NCBI RefSeq assembly: GCF_028714975.1
Contig: NZ_JAQTLH010000003.1
Span: forward strand, 124,001 to 188,000
Source of the DNA: Sulfurimonas sp.
GTDB taxonomy: Bacteria; Campylobacterota; Campylobacteria; Campylobacterales; Sulfurimonadaceae
Reading direction: 5' to 3'
Length of the DNA: 64,000 nucleotides
Positions 9,336 to 59,054 of the stretch are shown piece after piece. The first letter of the stretch is position 1. Every line of letters begins with the position of its first letter. The position numbers were made by a program, and so were the translations under genes. The notes beneath the pieces are model-generated. The model did no database searches. It was not told the DNA's origin and saw nothing but the letters and a program-made list of their open reading frames with translations.

Positions 9336-10307
9336 TTACATAACTCCGGATTCAAACTGAGATCTCATTCTCTCTTTTTCTGCTTGAATTTTTACCTTAT
9401 CAGCCATTTTTTGACGATATGCCGCTACACTAAACCCAGTCCATACGACAAGCTGAGCAGCAACAAAGATTGAACTGTATGTTCCTATGACGACACCTAC
9501 TAACATCGGGAAACTAAATCCGAGCATTATGTCGCCGCCAAATAAAAAGAGAGTAAGAACAACAAAAAATACCGTCAAAGAGGTAAGAGTCGTACGAGAT
9601 TGCGTTCTAGAAACCGCTTCATTAATGATATGAACAAAATCTGCCTCTTTAGACTCTTCTATATGTTCGCGGACACGGTCATAAACGATAATAGTGTCAT
9701 GGATAGAGTAGCCCAAAATCATAAGCAGTGCCGCGACACTCTCTATATTAAAGTCAACTCCGAAATATGAAACAAATCCAAAAGTAATAACAATATCGTG
9801 AACAATAGCAATAATAGCAGCCAACGCAAAACGCCACTCATATCTAAATGTCACGGTTGCCATAATTGCCAATAGTGTTAATAAAAATGCGCTAAGACCT
9901 TTAACACGCAGTTCGTCTCCTACTTTTGGACCGACCATATCGACACGGCGAATCTCAAACTCACCCGTGCCTTTTAAAATCTCTTTAGTGGTATCGCCTA
10001 TATCATGACTTAAACCGACTGTAGATGAGGGAGTTTTAATAACTACCTCTTGCGATGAACCAAACTCGCTTACGCTTGCATGTTCAAAAAGTTCGCTCTT
10101 TTTAAGACTTTCGCGAATCTTATCAATCGGAGCATCACCCGTATATTTTACCTGAACAACCGTTCCTCCGGTAAAATCGATACCAAACGAAAACCCTTTT
10201 ATTGCAATAAGAGCAATTGAGATAAAAAATAGAACAAACGACGCAATAAAAAAGATTTTTCCTTTTCCTAAAAAATTATAAATCTTATCTTCTTTAAAAA
10301 GTTCCAT
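9336..10307 (-). CDS. secF: Protein translocase subunit SecF
   Basis: Inner-membrane partner of SecD that uses the proton gradient to help pull exported proteins through SecYEG. The 323-residue protein has TM1 near residues 15-38, the FGIDFTGGTVVQV segment typical of SecF directly after it, a periplasmic domain, and five C-terminal membrane segments with the SIHDTIIVYDRVRE motif. It begins three bases after the stop of secD, so the two are certainly co-expressed. Confidence 0.97.
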   Translation of the reverse strand: MELFKEDKIYNFLGKGKIFFIASFVLFFISIALIAIKGFSFGIDFTGGTVVQVKYTGDAPIDKIRESLKKSELFEHASVSEFGSSQEVVIKTPSSTVGLSHDIGDTTKEILKGTGEFEIRRVDMVGPKVGDELRVKGLSAFLLTLLAIMATVTFRYEWRFALAAIIAIVHDIVITFGFVSYFGVDFNIESVAALLMILGYSIHDTIIVYDRVREHIEESKEADFVHIINEAVSRTQSRTTLTSLTVFFVVLTLFLFGGDIMLGFSFPMLVGVVIGTYSSIFVAAQLVVWTGFSVAAYRQKMADKVKIQAEKERMRSQFESGVM

Positions 10308-10310
10308 AAG

Positions 10311-11888
10311 TTATGCTCCCTTTCTTTTTGACATACCAAACCACAGCGTGTAATTTTTATCTTTCTCTATGCGACTCATGAAAAACTGATAAATACCGTA
10401 AGTGCTGACAATTGCCGTTAATATGGATGCCAATATACCTAAACTAAGAGTAACCGCGAATCCTTTAATGGCACCCGTTCCGTATACATAAAGAATTGTA
10501 CAAGCTAAAATTTGCGTTATATTTGAATCCAAAATCGCACGCATAGCTTTTTTGTATCCCTCCGAAATCGCTCTGCTTGTAGGGATTCCTGCACGAAGCC
10601 CTTCTCTAATACGCTCGTTAATAATAATATTTGCATCTACGGCGAGTCCTATATGCAACACAATCCCTGCCATACCGGGCAGAGTCAGCGTTGCGCCAAG
10701 AAGTGAAATAACACCCAAGATAATAAAAAGATTAACAACAACCGCTATATTGGCGATAACACCAGCAAGTCCATAATAAAACATCATAAAAACGATAACT
10801 AGCGCAAAACCGCTTACCAATGCAAGAAGTGACGCACGAATACTGTCAGCACCCAAACTAGGACCGACGGAGCGTTTTTCCATTACATAAATAGGTACTA
10901 AAAGCGAACCTGAGCGAAGAGCAATCGCCAAATCTTTAGCCTCTACCACAGTGTAATGACCGGAAATTTGACCGCTTCCGCCACCGATACGCTCATTGAT
11001 AACAGGAGCAGAGTAAACTTTCCCGTCCAACACGACCGCCAAACGCTTTCCTACGCTTCTACCGGTAAAATCACCGAATATTCCGGCACCTTCGGCATTT
11101 AGCGTGAAGCTAATCAACGGACGATTATTTTGGTCAAAGCCGACATGAGCATCCGTTAACATAGAACCGTCTAAGATAGGAATTTCACGAACCAGATGTT
11201 TTATCTGTGGGTTGTTAGCATCTTCTAAAATTACATCTCCGTAAGACGAAGCATCGGATTCACTCATAGAGTTAACCCGCGCTGCCCTATCCTCATCTAC
11301 CGCCATAAGTTCTAACTTTGCGGCACGAGAGATAAGCTCTCTAGCTCTTTGTTCTTCATCGGCAGTTTTAATCCCTGCCAACTCGACTAAAATCTGATTT
11401 TCACCTTGACGGGCAACCACCGGTTCAGCTAAACCAAACTGATCAAGCCTATTTCTAATCGTCTCGATTGCTTGAGATATCGCCTGTTCTTGAGATCTTA
11501 AAATCTCCTCTTTAGTTAAAGAGATAGAGATTTTTGCACCGTCGACGGCGACAACACTCCCCTTTATTTCAGAAATGAAATTTTTTACATTTTTTACTTC
11601 ATCTTTGTCTAAAAATGTAATGGAGACGCTATCTTCATTAAAACTAAAAGAGTCGATTATAATATCTTTTTTTTCGCTAAAATTTTTAACGCTTGCAGCA
11701 ATTGATTTTATACGAGCTTTTATCGCTTCGTCTGTTTTTACACCAAGAAGCATGTGGAGTCCGCCCTGCAAATCAAGCCCAAGCGTCACTTTTTTACCAC
11801 TTTCTAATTGCAAAAGCGAAGGAGCTGAAAAAAACAGACCAAACGCTATTAAAAATGCAAAAATTACTAAACGAAAATTAAGCTTCAT
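10311..11888 (-). CDS. secD: Protein translocase subunit SecD
   Basis: Works with SecF in late steps of Sec export. I chose the ATG at 11888 (MKLNFRLVIF), not the TTG at 11906, because the family usually begins with a few basic residues before TM1. This gives 525 residues. Visible are LGLDLQGGLHMLLGV after TM1, the periplasmic P1 domain with IRNRLDQFGLAEP, and the C-terminal membrane block with GLAVDANIIINERIREGLRAG. Its start lies within the last codons of yajC (11-base overlap), a sign of translational coupling. Confidence 0.97.
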   Translation of the reverse strand: MKLNFRLVIFAFLIAFGLFFSAPSLLQLESGKKVTLGLDLQGGLHMLLGVKTDEAIKARIKSIAASVKNFSEKKDIIIDSFSFNEDSVSITFLDKDEVKNVKNFISEIKGSVVAVDGAKISISLTKEEILRSQEQAISQAIETIRNRLDQFGLAEPVVARQGENQILVELAGIKTADEEQRARELISRAAKLELMAVDEDRAARVNSMSESDASSYGDVILEDANNPQIKHLVREIPILDGSMLTDAHVGFDQNNRPLISFTLNAEGAGIFGDFTGRSVGKRLAVVLDGKVYSAPVINERIGGGSGQISGHYTVVEAKDLAIALRSGSLLVPIYVMEKRSVGPSLGADSIRASLLALVSGFALVIVFMMFYYGLAGVIANIAVVVNLFIILGVISLLGATLTLPGMAGIVLHIGLAVDANIIINERIREGLRAGIPTSRAISEGYKKAMRAILDSNITQILACTILYVYGTGAIKGFAVTLSLGILASILTAIVSTYGIYQFFMSRIEKDKNYTLWFGMSKRKGA

Positions 11889-31537: not shown

Positions 31538-31613
31538 GGCCAATTAGCTCAGTCGGTAGAGCAAGTGACTGAAAATCACTGTGTCCTTGGTTCGATTCCG
31601 AGATTGGCCACCA
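31538..31613 (+). tRNA. tRNA-Phe(GAA), copy 1
   Basis: A complete 76-base cloverleaf with encoded CCA. The acceptor stem GGCCAAT pairs with ATTGGCC. The anticodon loop CTGAAAA carries GAA for phenylalanine. The T-loop is GGTTCGATTCC. Confidence 0.97.
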
Positions 31614-31642
31614 CTCTTTTAAACCACAACTTTTTTTATAAT

Positions 31643-31718
31643 GGCCAATTAGCTCAGTCGGTAGAGCAAGTGACTGAAAATCACTGTGTCCTTGGTTCGA
31701 TTCCGAGATTGGCCACCA
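31643..31718 (+). tRNA. tRNA-Phe(GAA), copy 2
   Basis: Identical over all 76 bases to the copy 29 bases upstream, including the encoded CCA. The spacer between them shows no -10 box, so it is probably cut from the same precursor. Perfect identity suggests a recent duplication or ongoing gene conversion. Confidence 0.97.
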
Positions 31719-52585: not shown

Positions 52586-53965
52586 TTAACTCTGTCTTTT
52601 TTGCGCTATTTCAAAAAGAGTCCCGATATTGTTTAATGATTTTAGATGTGCATCTATCATAGTCATAATCCCTTTTCTAACCCAGTCTGCTAAGATATCA
52701 TCGCTTAGTGCGTTAAGTTTTTCTCTATCTACGACTTTAAACCCGTTTACCAAAACTTTTTTCTCATCACCCTCACCTACTGAAATCTCTCTATCTTCAA
52801 GGATTCCGCTTTGTGAAATAATTTTAACTACATTTTGAGTAACGCTCATCTGAGTATCGTAAGAAGTTAAAAAAGTAATAGCATGTTCTAATGTTTCAGA
52901 CTTTTCGCCGTCTTTTTTAAAAAGCTGTTTGCCTTTTGATTTTGAAAAGAGTGAAGAGTCTTCATCTATAAGAATCACTTTTTGTTGTGGATTTTCTTTC
53001 GTACTTGCCAAAGAAAACGGATACTTTCTTAAGTATGACGGAACATAAGAAGTTATCCATTTTCCGTCCGCAGTTATTGCCAAACTATCCGAACCCAAAG
53101 AGACAACTGCTATTAAAGATGCACTTTCATCTGCCGTAAAAACTATAGGAAATAGTTCACCTACTTGTGAAACTTCACTAGCTAATACAGGTATATGAGT
53201 TACAGACTTTGCAAAATTTAAATCTGTCAATGGATTTATCTTTAATTCTTTGTGTTTTTCTTTATCTAAGATTGCTAAATTTTTGTACATTTTTTTTCCT
53301 TTTTCAATATGATCTTTTTTGGGACGACCTCTCTCTTTTAGAGATAGACTCATTCCTACTATTATCTCAAGATTTCTTATAAACTCTAAACTGCCGGTTA
53401 TGCTCTGTTTTTCTAAACATGTCGCTATAAACTCACTTTTATCTGTTTTAGAGTTAAAGAGTGCCGAGTATTTTTGTACTCTTTGCTCATCCGTAAATCC
53501 CAACTTTTTATACAAACCATGATAAGAGACGAGATCATCTTTTTTGTTATATAGATTTTTATAAATACTGCTAAAGAGGTGTTCTCTTGGAGCGAGCTTC
53601 TCTATATAAATCATAACATCAAAAAGAAATTTATCATTTTCTACAAGCGAAGATTTATATCTGCCTTCCCAAATAGTTCCTGTGCGATTATACTTTTTGT
53701 TAAAATAACCTACATATTTTCTACCCAAGCTTTGCATAAATTTTGACAAAGCATCTTCATTTGACGGAGTAGCCAAAAATTCAAAATAGTGCGGCATTAA
53801 AACATAAGCATGAACAGCCAAATCATTATTTGCACTAGACTCTTTTAAAATAGTCGTAAATGCTCTATAATCCGATTCATCTCTAAAAATAGCAAGCTTA
53901 TCCAAACTCTTTAGTATCACATGCTGTGAAGAATCTTTAACAAAAATTCTAACTTTTCGTGCCAA
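52586..53965 (-). CDS. RAYT transposase-SapC fusion protein
   Basis: A 459-residue protein of two halves. Residues 1-~220 are an REP-associated tyrosine transposase domain: QHVILKSLDKLAIFRDESDY, AYVLMPHYFEFLA, RTGTIWEGRYKSSLV, and a Tyr120 in the position of the catalytic tyrosine (MIYIEKLAP). The metal-binding HxH of the HUH motif (usually MPNHFHLL) is changed to Y60-F-E62. The half ends in ERGRPKK, the usual RAYT C-terminus. Residues 226-459 are a complete SapC domain: THIPVLASEVSQVGELFPIVF in parts, ADGKWITSYVPSYLRKYPF, LIDEDSSLF, GFKVVDREKLNAL. SapC proteins belong to S-layer secretion operons. The start is TTG at 53965 behind AAGGA. Sixty-one bases upstream of the ABC exporter. Confidence 0.88.
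   Translation of the reverse strand: MARKVRIFVKDSSQHVILKSLDKLAIFRDESDYRAFTTILKESSANNDLAVHAYVLMPHYFEFLATPSNEDALSKFMQSLGRKYVGYFNKKYNRTGTIWEGRYKSSLVENDKFLFDVMIYIEKLAPREHLFSSIYKNLYNKKDDLVSYHGLYKKLGFTDEQRVQKYSALFNSKTDKSEFIATCLEKQSITGSLEFIRNLEIIVGMSLSLKERGRPKKDHIEKGKKMYKNLAILDKEKHKELKINPLTDLNFAKSVTHIPVLASEVSQVGELFPIVFTADESASLIAVVSLGSDSLAITADGKWITSYVPSYLRKYPFSLASTKENPQQKVILIDEDSSLFSKSKGKQLFKKDGEKSETLEHAITFLTSYDTQMSVTQNVVKIISQSGILEDREISVGEGDEKKVLVNGFKVVDREKLNALSDDILADWVRKGIMTMIDAHLKSLNNIGTLFEIAQKRQS
53290..53302 (-). promoter_or_regulatory. Internal ribosome site and ATG for SapC domain
   Basis: On the minus strand AAAGGA (53302-53297) is followed by six bases and an in-frame ATG (first base 53290, codon 226). 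This is where the SapC half begins (MYKNLAILDKEKHKEL). A separate 234-residue SapC could therefore be made from the same message. Confidence 0.55.
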
Positions 53966-54595: not shown

Positions 54596-54672
54596 GCCGA
54601 CATAGCTCAGTTGGCTAGAGCAGCTGATTTGTAATCAGCAGGCCCGGGGTTCAAATCCTCGTGTCGGCACCA
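54596..54672 (+). tRNA. tRNA-Thr(TGT)
   Basis: A complete 77-base tRNA with encoded CCA. Acceptor stem GCCGACA/TGTCGGC, anticodon loop TTTGTAA with TGT for threonine. The -10 box TAGAAT (54575-54580) is upstream. The 3' end doubles as the left border of a genomic island. Confidence 0.97.
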
Positions 54673-54673
54673 C
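54653..54673 (+). repeat. Left attachment repeat (attL) in tRNA-Thr
   Basis: A 21-bp sequence, starting AAATCCTCG and ending CACCAC, made of the T-arm 3' side, acceptor strand and CCA of tRNA-Thr. It recurs exactly at 57960-57980. Confidence 0.85.
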
Positions 54674-54809
54674 AACCTAGTAAACCACCTAAATTACGCT
54701 ACTTCAACCAATTGTTCCAAAACTGCGCCAAAAATGTTCCAATTTTATGATTTGATAATTTGTTTATGCTAAAATAAATTCTGTATCTTTATCTAAAAAG
54801 TATAGAATA

Positions 54810-56384
54810 ATGAACTTTGATATCAGGAATTTTTTGAAACAACCTATCAGCATGTCAAAATATATTATTTTTGTCACATTGATAGATATGATACTGTACC
54901 ATTATCCACTCTATTCATTTGTATTTGCAAACCTAAATATTTCATCTCTTAGTGGCATATTGACTTTTTCTTCAGTATTGGTAGGTCTTTTTGTTGTTAC
55001 GGCATTCATTTTGTATTTATTCGCGATTATTTCGTCTCGCTTCGTTAAATTTTTTATTCCTTTTATAATGGTAGGAAATTCAATTGCACTTTATTTTATT
55101 ATTTCTTATCAGGTAATCTTAGATAAAACGATGATGGGGATTGTTTTCAACACAAATTCAACAGAAGCCATAAGCTATTATAATCCAAAAATGTTTCTTT
55201 ACCTTTTTATTTTAGGGATACTCCCAGCCTATATAATTTCAAAAATCCATATTGAAAAGACTAAACGATTGCATCTTTTTTTCTACGCAACAGGTATATT
55301 AGTTAGTGGTGTTCTAATTATGTATCTTAATGCCGGTACATGGTTATGGATAGATAAATACGCAAAAAGGCTTGGTGGTTTGGCGCTACCTTGGTCTTAT
55401 ACGATTAATGCTATTCGATATGAAGCAGAAGAATTAAAACATTCAAAAGAACAAATACTCCTGCCAAATGCTAAATTTTTAGACGATAAAAAAATGATTG
55501 TAGTGCTTGTAATTGGTGAATCAGCTAGGGCTAATAACTTCTCACTCTATGGCTATGAACGGGATACAAATCCACTACTTAAAACATTAAATGTAACCAC
55601 TTTAAAAAATGCTTTTTCATCGTCAACATATACAACTGCATCCGTTAACAGTATACTCTCTTATGAAGGCGGAACTTCTGATAATTATGAACCTCTACCA
55701 AACTATTTGCAACGTTTAGGAGCAGATGTAATATGGAGAACGAAAAATTGGGGAGAGCCTTCTCTTAAAATTCAAACATATGAAAGGGATGATAAGCTCA
55801 CACCTCACTGCGATGGGGAAGGATGTCAATATGATGAAGTCTTATTAACGGAACTAACCAAATGTATTGAAGCATCAAAGAAAAAGAAAATATTTATAAT
55901 TTTACATACATCAGGTAGTCATGGACCCACATATTATACAAAATATCCCAAACGTTTTGAAGTTTTCAAGCCGGTATGCAAAACTGTGGACTTAAAAGAA
56001 TGTTCGAATCAGGAACTCATCAATGCTTATGATAATACAATTTTATATACAGATTATTTTTTAAGTAAAGTAATCGAAGTTTTGAAACAATCCTCAAATA
56101 CGCCTAGTTTAATGCTGTATGTTTCAGATCATGGAGAATCTTTGGGTGAATATGGGCTGTATTTACATGGAACCCCTTATTCAATTGCTCCAGATGTACA
56201 AAAAAAAATTCCATTTATAATATGGGAGTCAGAAAGTTTTCTTGCAATGAAAAATCTTTCTAAGACTTATACAAAACCAATGGATAGCTATGGCCAAAAT
56301 AATATATTTCATACCATTATAGGAGCTTTTGGGGTTAATAGTCCTGTTTACAATAAAAAGCTTGATATATTACAAAGAGAATAA
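54810..56384 (+). CDS. EptA/MCR-family phosphoethanolamine transferase
   Basis: Inner-membrane enzyme that moves phosphoethanolamine from phosphatidylethanolamine, most often to lipid A, lowering affinity for cationic peptides. The 524-residue protein has five N-terminal membrane helices (residues ~18-180) and a periplasmic alkaline-phosphatase-fold domain. Metal and catalytic residues are in VIGESARANNFSLYGY (E237), SSTYTTASV (T273 aligns with the phospho-accepting threonine), HTSGSHGPTYY, and VSDHGESLGEYGLYLHG. Cysteines near T273, usual in MCR proteins, are missing. First gene of the island. Confidence 0.9.
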   Translation: MNFDIRNFLKQPISMSKYIIFVTLIDMILYHYPLYSFVFANLNISSLSGILTFSSVLVGLFVVTAFILYLFAIISSRFVKFFIPFIMVGNSIALYFIISYQVILDKTMMGIVFNTNSTEAISYYNPKMFLYLFILGILPAYIISKIHIEKTKRLHLFFYATGILVSGVLIMYLNAGTWLWIDKYAKRLGGLALPWSYTINAIRYEAEELKHSKEQILLPNAKFLDDKKMIVVLVIGESARANNFSLYGYERDTNPLLKTLNVTTLKNAFSSSTYTTASVNSILSYEGGTSDNYEPLPNYLQRLGADVIWRTKNWGEPSLKIQTYERDDKLTPHCDGEGCQYDEVLLTELTKCIEASKKKKIFIILHTSGSHGPTYYTKYPKRFEVFKPVCKTVDLKECSNQELINAYDNTILYTDYFLSKVIEVLKQSSNTPSLMLYVSDHGESLGEYGLYLHGTPYSIAPDVQKKIPFIIWESESFLAMKNLSKTYTKPMDSYGQNNIFHTIIGAFGVNSPVYNKKLDILQRE

Positions 56385-56426
56385 ATATGTAATTTTTTAT
56401 GTTTTAAAACAATGTCAACATAAAGA

Positions 56427-57041
56427 TTATGCTGAATTTAATCTCCATTTCTTAGGCCAATAGATGCATAATATGCTTACGGTTATTACCCCTACAAGTG
56501 CCCCCACTAATACGTCACTTAGATAATGCTTTGTTAAAAGTACTCGGCTCACACCCACTGCAATAGCTATAATCCAGCCTATTACTGCCCATCTTGGCCA
56601 ATACAGTGAAATGTACATTGCCAATGCGAACGCCGTTGTTGTGTGGCCTGATGGAAATGAATTCATATCAGAATTGCGATGAAAAAAATCAAATCCATAA
56701 AGAACTTTTTCAAATAACATGCACGGACGAACCCGTCCCGCAATAACTTTAATAATACCAGTAATAATGCCGGAGATGGCTACAACCGCAAAAAGAAAAA
56801 GAGCATGATGCGATTTGTATAGATTTTTTTTAATATAATGAAAATAAAAGAACAGTAATGCTGATCCAATCAAATAAGGGGTAGAAATTCCAAGTTGTGT
56901 AACAGCAACAAAAAAGTCATTACAGCCTCCTACGCAATAATGAACGGACCATTCCGCTATAGTACGATCAAGAACAAAGTATGCGCAGATGGCAATAAAA
57001 AATGTGATTATGATGTACTGTTTCAATGGAGAACCCTTCAT
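56427..57041 (-). CDS. PAP2-family membrane phosphatase
   Basis: A 204-residue integral membrane phosphatase with six helices. All three PAP2 motifs are intact: KVIAGRVRP (K98, R105, P106), FPSGH (P130-H133), and SRVLLTKHYLSD (S165, R166, H172, D176). Such enzymes act on lipid phosphates in the outer leaflet of the inner membrane, for example lipid A phosphates, undecaprenyl pyrophosphate or phosphatidylglycerol phosphate. It is convergent with the eptA-like gene. Pairing with EptA recalls the LpxE-EptA pair of Helicobacter pylori; the substrate here is inferred. Confidence 0.87.
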   Translation of the reverse strand: MKGSPLKQYIIITFFIAICAYFVLDRTIAEWSVHYCVGGCNDFFVAVTQLGISTPYLIGSALLFFYFHYIKKNLYKSHHALFLFAVVAISGIITGIIKVIAGRVRPCMLFEKVLYGFDFFHRNSDMNSFPSGHTTTAFALAMYISLYWPRWAVIGWIIAIAVGVSRVLLTKHYLSDVLVGALVGVITVSILCIYWPKKWRLNSA

Positions 57042-57388
57042 TTAACGCCCCCCCCTCTTTGTTACGTCACACATGAATTTTAGTTTAATGACTATGATAT
57101 AAGATAGATTATCCATCATTATATATCTTTTTTTATAAAGCGAGCGCTTTTTTGACTCGATTGAATAAATATTTTTTCGTTTTTTATCACTTAAGAATAT
57201 ATAAAAACGACCATCACGAATACCGCCTTATCTTCGAAATACTTATTGTAATTAACCTGAACCTGTATTTATTGCTGCAATTTTTTCAATTCCGAACGAT
57301 TTGGCTATGGTTCTTAATATTGTGAATATTAAGAAAAAGTGTTAAAATAATCCTTCAATTATTAAAAATGAGATGGAGTGAGGCTAAG
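57042..57388. other. Intergenic region inside the island
   Basis: This 347-base gap separates the divergent PAP2 genes. It has no open frame that looks coding. It contains a C8 run (57046 region) just before the start of the minus-strand gene, very AT-rich stretches, and a perfect 25-base inverted repeat (listed separately) followed by a possible -10 (TAAAAT, about 57343-57348). Confidence 0.6.
57311..57335. promoter_or_regulatory. Perfect 11-bp inverted repeat, candidate operator
   Basis: TTCTTAATATT and its exact complement AATATTAAGAA flank GTG. It sits 53 bases before the second PAP2 start and just upstream of a possible -10, in the -35 region. There is no T-run on either side, so a terminator is unlikely. 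Confidence 0.55.
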
Positions 57389-57913
57389 ATGGTAAAAAAA
57401 GTATTTGCATTAATATTTTCTCTATTCGTCTTAAATGGGCATTTGTTTTCTGATAATATTGAAAAAACTGGGAATACAATACAACTGTTAATACCATCAA
57501 TTGCATACGGAACAACTTTTTATCTTGATGATGAGAGTGGTCGTAATGAGTTTTATAAATCATTTGTAACAAATATGGCTGTAACATACGGATTAAAATA
57601 TACCATCAATGAGCGAAGACCTAATGGTAATGACCATTCTTTTCCATCAGCTCATACTTCGTTATCATTTCAAAGTGCAACATTCATTCATAAAAGATAT
57701 GGGCTTGAATATGCTATTCCAGCTTATTTAGCTTCAACTTTTGTTGCTTACAGTAGAGTAGAAGCACATGAACATTACACAAAAGATGTTATAGCAGGAG
57801 CTTGTATTGGTATAGCAAGTAGTTATTATTTTACTACTGAATATAAAGGCTATAATATCTCGCCAATGATAAGTAATTCGTTGTATGGAATTAGTGTAGT
57901 AAAAAGTTTTTAA
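57389..57913 (+). CDS. PAP2-family phosphatase with signal peptide
   Basis: A 174-residue PAP2 protein from the ATG at 57389, chosen because GAGG precedes it and because the following KKVFALIFSLFVLNGHLFS is a signal sequence or first helix. The catalytic motifs are complete: KYTINERRP (K70, R77, P78), FPSAH (H89), and SRVEAHEHYTKD (S122, R123, H129, D133). It is different in sequence and layout from the other PAP2 protein of the island, so the two are not a recent duplication. Possible lipid A phosphatase; not proven. Confidence 0.85.
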   Translation: MVKKVFALIFSLFVLNGHLFSDNIEKTGNTIQLLIPSIAYGTTFYLDDESGRNEFYKSFVTNMAVTYGLKYTINERRPNGNDHSFPSAHTSLSFQSATFIHKRYGLEYAIPAYLASTFVAYSRVEAHEHYTKDVIAGACIGIASSYYFTTEYKGYNISPMISNSLYGISVVKSF

Positions 57914-57959
57914 GTGCCTATTTATAGGTGTTTTGTGGTTTTTCATTTATCTATTTAGA

Positions 57960-57980
57960 AAATCCTCGTGTCGGCACCAC
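57960..57980 (+). repeat. Right attachment repeat (attR)
   Basis: An exact copy of the last 21 bases around the tRNA-Thr 3' end (54653-54673), without the rest of the tRNA. It marks the right edge of the island. Native sequence leading to the WecA-like gene follows. Confidence 0.85.
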
Positions 57981-58040: not shown

Positions 58041-59054
58041 ATGATTGAAATAAAATACATTTTACCGTTTATATTATCATTTTTATTTATATATCTTCTT
58101 ATAAGATATGCTTCAAAAATCGGGATATTGGATATACCAAACGATAGAAGCATACACGCAAGCACCGTACCTAGAAGCGGCGGCATCGGCTTCATCTCTG
58201 CACTTTTCATATCTTTTGCACTGCTTGAGACGGCTCTGTTTTTACAATATATCTATATGTTCTTGGCAATTGCAATAGTTTTTATCGCAGGTTTTTACGA
58301 TGACTATAAAAATCTCTCACCTAGAATTAAATTTTTCGCCATAGGCTCATCTACACTTTTTTTGTACTTTAATAATATTTACATAGACTCTTTGGGAATT
58401 TATTTTGGATTTGATGCCGTGCTGTTTTATCTCTCTATCCCGTTTACTATCTTTGTCGTTAGCGGCTTTACAAATGCCCTAAATCTCATAGACGGACTTG
58501 ATGGACTAGCCGGAGGAATCTCTATAGTAATCCTTACAACCTTTGCTTATGTCGGCTTTGTTTTTAACGATGAGTTGATATTTTTGCTATCTATATTTAC
58601 AATAGCCGTTTTGGCTGCTTTTACAATGTTTAATTGGTCGCCGGCAAAAATATTTATGGGTGACAGCGGGAGTTTAAGCATAGGTTTTATCATATCTACA
58701 ATAGCGATTTTAAGCATAAAACATATACATCCCGTAATAATTTTATACTTTGCAGCCATTCCCATCATAGACACCGTAGTTGTAATGCTTAGACGAATAA
58801 ATATGAAACGCTCGCCGTTTTTGGCGGATAAAACACATATACATCACATACTTTATAGATTTTTCGGCGATGCGAAACAGACTGCAATATTTTTGATACT
58901 AGCTCAACTTATATTCTGTTTTTTGGGGTATGTAGTAGCTAGACACATTGAGCATTACCCAAACGGTCTATTCCCGATAGCTATGATTTTTACTTTTTTT
59001 ATCTTAATTGCAATGGCGTATATGATTTTTACGACTATTTTAAAAAAGGGATGA
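58041..59054 (+). CDS. WecA-like undecaprenyl-phosphate sugar-1-phosphate transferase
   Basis: A polytopic enzyme of 337 residues with about eleven helices, of the family that starts O-antigen or similar glycans by transferring a HexNAc-1-phosphate. Motifs are PNDRSIHASTVPRSGGIGF, FYDDYKNLSPRIK (DD pair), [27 protein letters not shown], and the C-terminal THIHHILYRFF, which corresponds to the WecA HIHH segment. It faces the minus-strand glycosyltransferase cluster, ending three bases from it. Confidence 0.92.
   Translation: MIEIKYILPFILSFLFIYLLIRYASKIGILDIPNDRSIHASTVPRSGGIGFISALFISFALLETALFLQYIYMFLAIAIVFIAGFYDDYKNLSPRIKFFAIGSSTLFLYFNNIYIDSLGIYFGFDAVLFYLSIPFTIFVVSGFTNALNLIDGLDGLAGGISIVILTTFAYVGFVFNDELIFLLSIFTIAVLAAFTMFNWSPAKIFMGDSGSLSIGFIISTIAILSIKHIHPVIILYFAAIPIIDTVVVMLRRINMKRSPFLADKTHIHHILYRFFGDAKQTAIFLILAQLIFCFLGYVVARHIEHYPNGLFPIAMIFTFFILIAMAYMIFTTILKKG

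Follow-up and report, generated by a model that had tools for sequence, protein, structure and literature searches.

An integrase-less island at a tRNA-Thr gene of Sulfurimonas with the attachment-site arm of a tyrosine-integrase family and a predicted lipid A module

Cis-mobilizable elements (CIMEs) are defined, in the part of the source available to us, as elements that have lost integration and transfer genes, with both attachment sites, attL and attR, retained (PMC5704250). At the ssrA gene of Dehalococcoides, 15 islands without an integration module have been suggested to be CIMEs, according to the excerpted text of that study (PMC3146451). As to the functions encountered below, the accessible sections of a Helicobacter study describe LpxE as taking off the 1-phosphate of lipid A, after which EptA adds phosphoethanolamine (PMC3245313). 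Here, we analyze a stretch of 64,000 nucleotides from Sulfurimonas sp. (assembly GCF_028714975.1, contig NZ_JAQTLH010000003.1, positions 124,001 to 188,000; hereafter, the window), in which a segment of 3,307 bp stands at the 3' end of a tRNA-Thr gene. We consider it likely that this island is a derivative of a tyrosine-integrase island family of this genus that has lost its integrase, i.e., a CIME with a lipid A module.

The initial annotation had described an exact 21-bp repeat of the tRNA-Thr 3' end that covers the CCA plus one base and bounds a segment of about 3.3 kb with three envelope genes and no integrase, and the sequence bears out each of these points. The two copies of the 21-mer AAATCCTCGTGTCGGCACCAC are identical and 3,307 bp apart, with the tRNA ending at 54672 and the repeat at 54673; the insert contains three complete genes in mixed orientation, one encoding EptA and two encoding PAP2 phosphatases. 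Searches of the window's own genome (G000) covered 2.06 Mb in 23 contigs. Allowing up to three mismatches, the last 20 bases of the 21-mer occur there at just these two places, and the same pattern read backwards, which served as a control, has no match. No integrase or integrase remnant was found inside the insert, where the best six-frame match to an integrase profile from the own genome had E = 0.15; this profile recovers all eight integrases of the genome, its source sequences, and none of the eight PF00589 matches in the genome falls within the window. Among the attributes of a tRNA island, the segment displays the tRNA 3' end as a direct repeat on either border and an intact tRNA gene, and lacks an integrase gene within the element.

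An empty site in close relatives had been predicted, and it was found. We searched the WecA-like neighbor of the island in 120 genomes of the genus and obtained 17 genomes at E <= 1e-60, the own genome included; the closest two others are G039 (96% identity) and G040 (84%). Both of these nearest relatives (2/2) contain a single copy of the 21-mer, and in both, the WecA-like gene comes immediately after tRNA-Thr. Just downstream of the core, the two empty sites read TTCTTA, a sequence that comes after the distal copy in the window; thus, the island's own left end starts at 54674 and the distal copy is on the original chromosome side. The features of the borders are the following:

54596-54672, + strand: tRNA-Thr (anticodon tgt), identified with ARAGORN; the target gene, intact, and likewise present in G039 and G040 at their empty sites
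54653-54673, + strand: tRNA-side copy of the 21-bp attachment core (attL), exact repeat
57960-57980, + strand: distal copy of the 21-bp attachment core (attR), exact repeat
58041-59054, + strand: WecA-like glycosyltransferase family 4 gene; flank, not cargo, and directly after the tRNA in the empty sites

The DNA between the tRNA-side core and the EptA gene provides the link to an integrase family, through two features:

54682-54707, + strand: conserved block AAACCaCCTAAAttACG...TTCAA beside the core, also found in islands with an integrase but not in the empty sites
54710-54741 (or 54713-54741), + strand: three 11-bp phased repeats (TGTTCCAAAA/TGCGCCAAAA/TGTTCCA), putative arm-type integrase binding sites

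The score of this array was reached by 3 of 2000 dinucleotide shuffles. With up to three mismatches, the array pattern was detected at five places in 4 of 53 genomes (the own genome, G032, G025 and G002); the second place in G025 has TGTTTCA-type units only. The array follows an intact tRNA-Leu in G032 and a tRNA-like 3' end in G002 and G025. An open integrase frame, 366 codons long in G025 and 365 in G002 (~48% identical), has its end 12 bp past the array and is followed by a small, excisionase-like helix-turn-helix gene (in G025, the one scanned, PF12728 is just below the cut-off). The same layout is found at a tRNA-Asn gene on contig C18 of the own assembly, with an integrase ~46% identical to those of G025 and G002. 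The integrases contain PF00589 and PF14659, and PF12167 in G025 and the tRNA-Asn element (just under the cut-off in G002); the domains of the family are Arm-DNA-bind_2, Phage_int_SAM_3 and Phage_integrase.

A profile of the attL arm was built from the four other ends (G032, G025, G002 and C18), with the window left out. It matched the window at 54677-54740 with E = 8.5e-8, while the next best match had E = 0.26 and the reversed window gave 2.8 at best. The tyrosine-integrase origin that had been claimed for the attachment sites is thus independently backed by homology of the attL arm. Homology to integrase-bearing ends also suggests that arm-type sites lie beside the core, and the lost integrase would be assignable, through its arms, to the family named above.

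When the profile was rebuilt from all five ends, the window included (model R1), it marked three strong places in the own genome: C18, the window and a locus on contig C3. The latter (C3:72033-72099; L274 7034-7100) lies directly after a tRNA-Asn gene and is trailed by roughly the last dozen integrase codons, ending in SFLGNI-stop as in C18; judged by these marks, it is a scar of the same island family as the window end. Two weaker matches (E ~0.001 and ~0.004; C1:212841-212902 and C2:39125-39174), directly behind tRNA-Asn and tRNA-Met, are possibly older scars. In G032, a C-terminal integrase remnant next to a transposase pair, which we take to be IS3-like from the look of the proteins, marks a decayed island of the same family (L258 ~9506-10815, behind tRNA-Leu). 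Hence, the five other ends comprise three with an integrase frame and two with an integrase remnant; the window end has neither. The distance from the CCA or core to the array is 51-53 bp in four other ends and 40 bp in the window, i.e., about one helical turn shorter. Right ends (attR) matching the elements of G002, G025, G032 and C18 were not found in the stretches searched. Promoter-like sites were not enriched (17 versus 19.5 in shuffles).

The cargo consists of three genes:

54810-56384, + strand: EptA-type phosphoethanolamine--lipid A transferase, 524 aa (PF00884, PF08019, NF007160), with relatives among solved structures
56427-57041, - strand: PAP2 membrane phosphatase, PAP2a, 204 aa (PF01569, 91.2 bits), with the three-part PAP2 motif
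57368-57913, + strand: second PAP2 phosphatase, PAP2b, 181 aa (PF01569, 46.7 bits); a start at 57389 is also possible

The EptA protein scores 643.4 bits against the curated EptA model NF007160 (cut-off 561), aligns lengthwise with a solved EptA chain and contains the SDHGES and LHGTPY stretches; its best score against the curated MCR models is 260 bits, far below the cut-off of 1250, which places it outside the MCR families. Both PAP2 proteins exceed the PF01569 cut-off of 27.2 and belong to the PAP2 superfamily. The closest solved chain for both is LpxE (6ebu), a weak match (E = 0.00024 for PAP2b); under the LpxE model NF007159, PAP2b reaches 33.2 bits against a cut-off of 177 and PAP2a is not listed, so that neither is assigned to LpxE. 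The cargo probably remodels lipid A, as far as can be judged from sequence. On the basis of family membership, EptA would add phosphoethanolamine, making the surface charge less negative against cationic peptides, and one or both PAP2 enzymes would dephosphorylate lipid A or recycle undecaprenyl pyrophosphate. A functional link of the two PAP2 genes is supported by G515 (L247 7380-8631), in which PAP2a-like and PAP2b-like genes are adjacent, beside a gene of outer-membrane look. In two Campylobacteraceae loci (L078 829-4499 and L080 6884-10868), EptAs of both clades described below stand in a row, with a dual-specificity-phosphatase-like gene between them.

The island DNA is foreign, as seen from its tetranucleotides together with an EptA clade different from that of the resident EptA. 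The base-composition check proposed initially succeeded in one part only: the tetranucleotide distance of the island stands out (0.324, whereas the tiles average 0.174 with an sd of 0.029 and none of the 109 overlapping ones comes as high), but its plain G+C does not (0.320, with tiles of equal size averaging 0.375 and spanning 0.301-0.428). A second EptA of the own genome, encoded on contig C15, is 38% identical to that of the island. The best match of the island EptA elsewhere was 41% identical in a set of 99 genomes (own included) and 53% in 397 genomes of the class (G346). A search of 84,980 species genomes recovered ten loci with close relatives from Sulfurovum, Campylobacteraceae and gammaproteobacterial records, at 48-59% identity, the top identity of 59% spanning 356 of 524 residues. 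In a maximum-likelihood tree of 45 rows (midpoint-rooted solely for display; some of its long branches were flagged), the EptA of the island clusters with the Sulfurovum, Campylobacteraceae and G346 rows, and that of C15 has the G039 protein as its sister in the opposite half, each half having 100/100 support. The nearest relatives differ by gene: 53% in G346 for EptA, 55% in G435 for PAP2a, and 49-53% in G201 and G515 for PAP2b. A plasmid source for EptA was rejected, since the best plasmid match was 45.8% identical (Alteromonas) and none exceeded 60%; PAP2a had just two weak matches on plasmids, and EptA was not found in viral contigs.

We also looked for an integrase-bearing parent, a helper or an outside source of the island. 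The tRNA-Thr 3' end is present in at least 115 of 135 genomes of the genus. Among the matches listed, 112 locus records correspond to 90 distinct sites, with downstream sequence of at least 1.4 kb in 84 and at least 3 kb in 63. At none of these 90 sites was there an attL-arm match at E <= 1 or an integrase, and thus tRNA-Thr is not a common target in the genus. A pattern consisting of the core plus TGTTCC occurred in 2 of 397 class genomes (the own genome and G142, the latter without an attL-arm match) and in no viral contig; the strict array pattern gave no match. The left end of the island had no match in Escherichia coli genomes and plasmids apart from one at chance level. A viral link of the array was tried and rejected: TGTTCCAANNNTGNNCCAANNNTGTTCCA matched 15 IMG/VR stretches, with an integrase in just 3 of the 15, near the array in one (L180), and a looser pattern matched 17 viral stretches, about the chance number by estimate, and was given no evidential use. 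Nitratiruptor phages were likewise discarded as a source, their integrases being at most 34.6% identical, and the opening 120 bases of the NrS-1 record showing neither array nor tRNA core. For another viral relative (L261), the record ends 15 bp past the integrase match.

Two further features of the window should be mentioned in their own right. A 459-aa frame at 52586-53965 (- strand) combines, in an odd fusion, a Y1 transposase domain of the IS200/REP type (PF01797) over residues 11-122 with SapC (PF07277) over residues 233-450. Two tandem tRNA-Phe genes, 29 bp apart, occupy 31538-31718.

In the scenario that we favor, an island of the Arm-DNA-bind_2/Phage_int_SAM_3/Phage_integrase family would have inserted site-specifically within the 3'-terminal 21 bp of tRNA-Thr(tgt). 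As the empty sites and the arm homology suggest, the insertion would have restored the tRNA and left the second core copy 3.3 kb downstream. The integrase gene, which adjoins the arm array in sister islands and is observed to be absent here, would subsequently have been removed without trace, and the remainder would be an att-flanked cargo unit, a CIME. Erosion does occur in this island family, as the decayed sister ends of G032 and C3:72033 show.

Several observations weigh against this scenario. No arm-like repeat was recognized at the right end of the island, and its plain G+C falls inside the range of the flanking tiles. Integrases were absent from all 90 distinct tRNA-Thr sites (112 records) among the matches listed, so that the expected parent, with the same arms, a tRNA-Thr core and an integrase, was not seen. 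Moreover, the integrase beside tRNA-Asn in this assembly may be that of another species. Its contig, C18 (L215), repeats a tRNA-Asn locus of C3 (L274) with 78% DNA identity over 2,660 bp; the genes of the duplicated locus are presumably hemE and a radical-SAM gene, names given by the appearance of the proteins. Contig C18, which is short, may be contamination from another species, and for this reason we do not count its integrase as resident.

Alternatively, the island could be a minimal element of attachment sites and cargo that is regularly moved in trans, by the integrase of another island that recognizes its arms and core. This would account for the identity of the two 21-bp copies and for the good preservation of the array, whose offset is 11-13 bp shorter; a shift of about one helical turn would roughly keep the phasing. 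It would also fit the lack of any integrase remnant, unlike in the decayed ends of G032 and C3:72033. However, no second integrase-less copy was found (EptA is at most 53% identical in the 397 class genomes, and at most 59% over 356/524 residues in the larger genome collection), the tRNA-Thr sites, class genomes and viral contigs searched yielded no helper island with a tRNA-Thr core, and just 4 of the 53 relatives, own genome included, have the array. We regard such regular movement as unlikely. Its bolder form, which we hold to be less probable again, is a functional unit of core, attL array and three envelope genes moved between Campylobacterota by borrowed Arm-DNA-bind_2 integrases; if true, it would be a chromosomal counterpart of the mcr-pap2 units, spreading surface-charge remodeling without plasmid or transposon.

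Still more doubtful is a two-step history, in which the interior of a larger integrase island at tRNA-Thr was replaced later by the present cargo through ordinary recombination, e.g., natural transformation. The mixed orientation of the three genes and their differing nearest relatives are compatible with such replacement, but there is no scar or partial integrase inside the island, and nothing speaks positively for two steps. That the repeat is coincidental and the three genes are ancestral, having been lost in relatives, is extremely improbable: apart from there being just two close relatives, nothing favors it, the junction in both G039 and G040 has one copy, exactly as it should before an insertion, the genome has no further match to the 20-mer, and the end bears attL arms.

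Loss of the integrase from a family island remains our preferred explanation, and the resulting locus can be compared with known systems. Like a CIME, the island has three cargo genes only, with no integration or transfer genes, and it appears to keep both attachment sites, with identical cores and a predicted attL arm. Homologous integrase-bearing ends were found, and a parent of the integrative and conjugative or the integrative and mobilizable type (ICE or IME) is conceivable. The available portion of the source places CIMEs in tandem arrangements with ICEs or IMEs (PMC5704250), whereas no neighboring element was seen here. The island fits the CIME definition, apart from proven ICE or IME descent. 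Among the literature compared, the closest parallel is provided by the ssrA islands of Dehalococcoides that lack an integration module: as far as the excerpted text goes, they too contain cargo only, between copies of a 20-bp repeat of the 3' end of an RNA gene (PMC3146451). They differ in forming multi-island arrays and in using a serine recombinase, as opposed to the single tRNA-Thr island with tyrosine-integrase arms in the window. A limited search of partly available literature on this group gave no account of such an island.

The locus provides a complete small case, combining an empty site, an exact att duplication and an attL arm that can be tied to a named family of integrases, all in the absence of an integrase. 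Searches based on integrases miss such islands and scars; the arm signature (the AAACCCCTAAAATACG block plus the 11-bp phased TGTTCCA/TGTGCCA array) is a tool for finding them beside tRNA genes, and it has already led to the scar beside tRNA-Asn in the own genome.

With regard to cargo, the EptA of the island exceeds the cut-off of model NF007160 and resembles in this respect the Helicobacter LpxE-EptA system, as presented in the accessible sections (PMC3245313), but neither island PAP2 passes NF007159 and the island genes do not form one operon. The mcr-pap2 units, in the passages at hand, are mobile units in which a phosphoethanolamine transferase likewise stands beside a lipid phosphatase of the PAP2 type, and there mcr-1-pap2 was moved onto plasmids by a transposon (PMC10285318). 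The island differs in being att-flanked, in having two PAP2 genes and in its EptA, which is outside every MCR family by the NCBIfam cut-offs. The pairing of a phosphoethanolamine transferase with PAP2 phosphatases on a mobile chromosomal unit is the same pairing as that of the mcr units.

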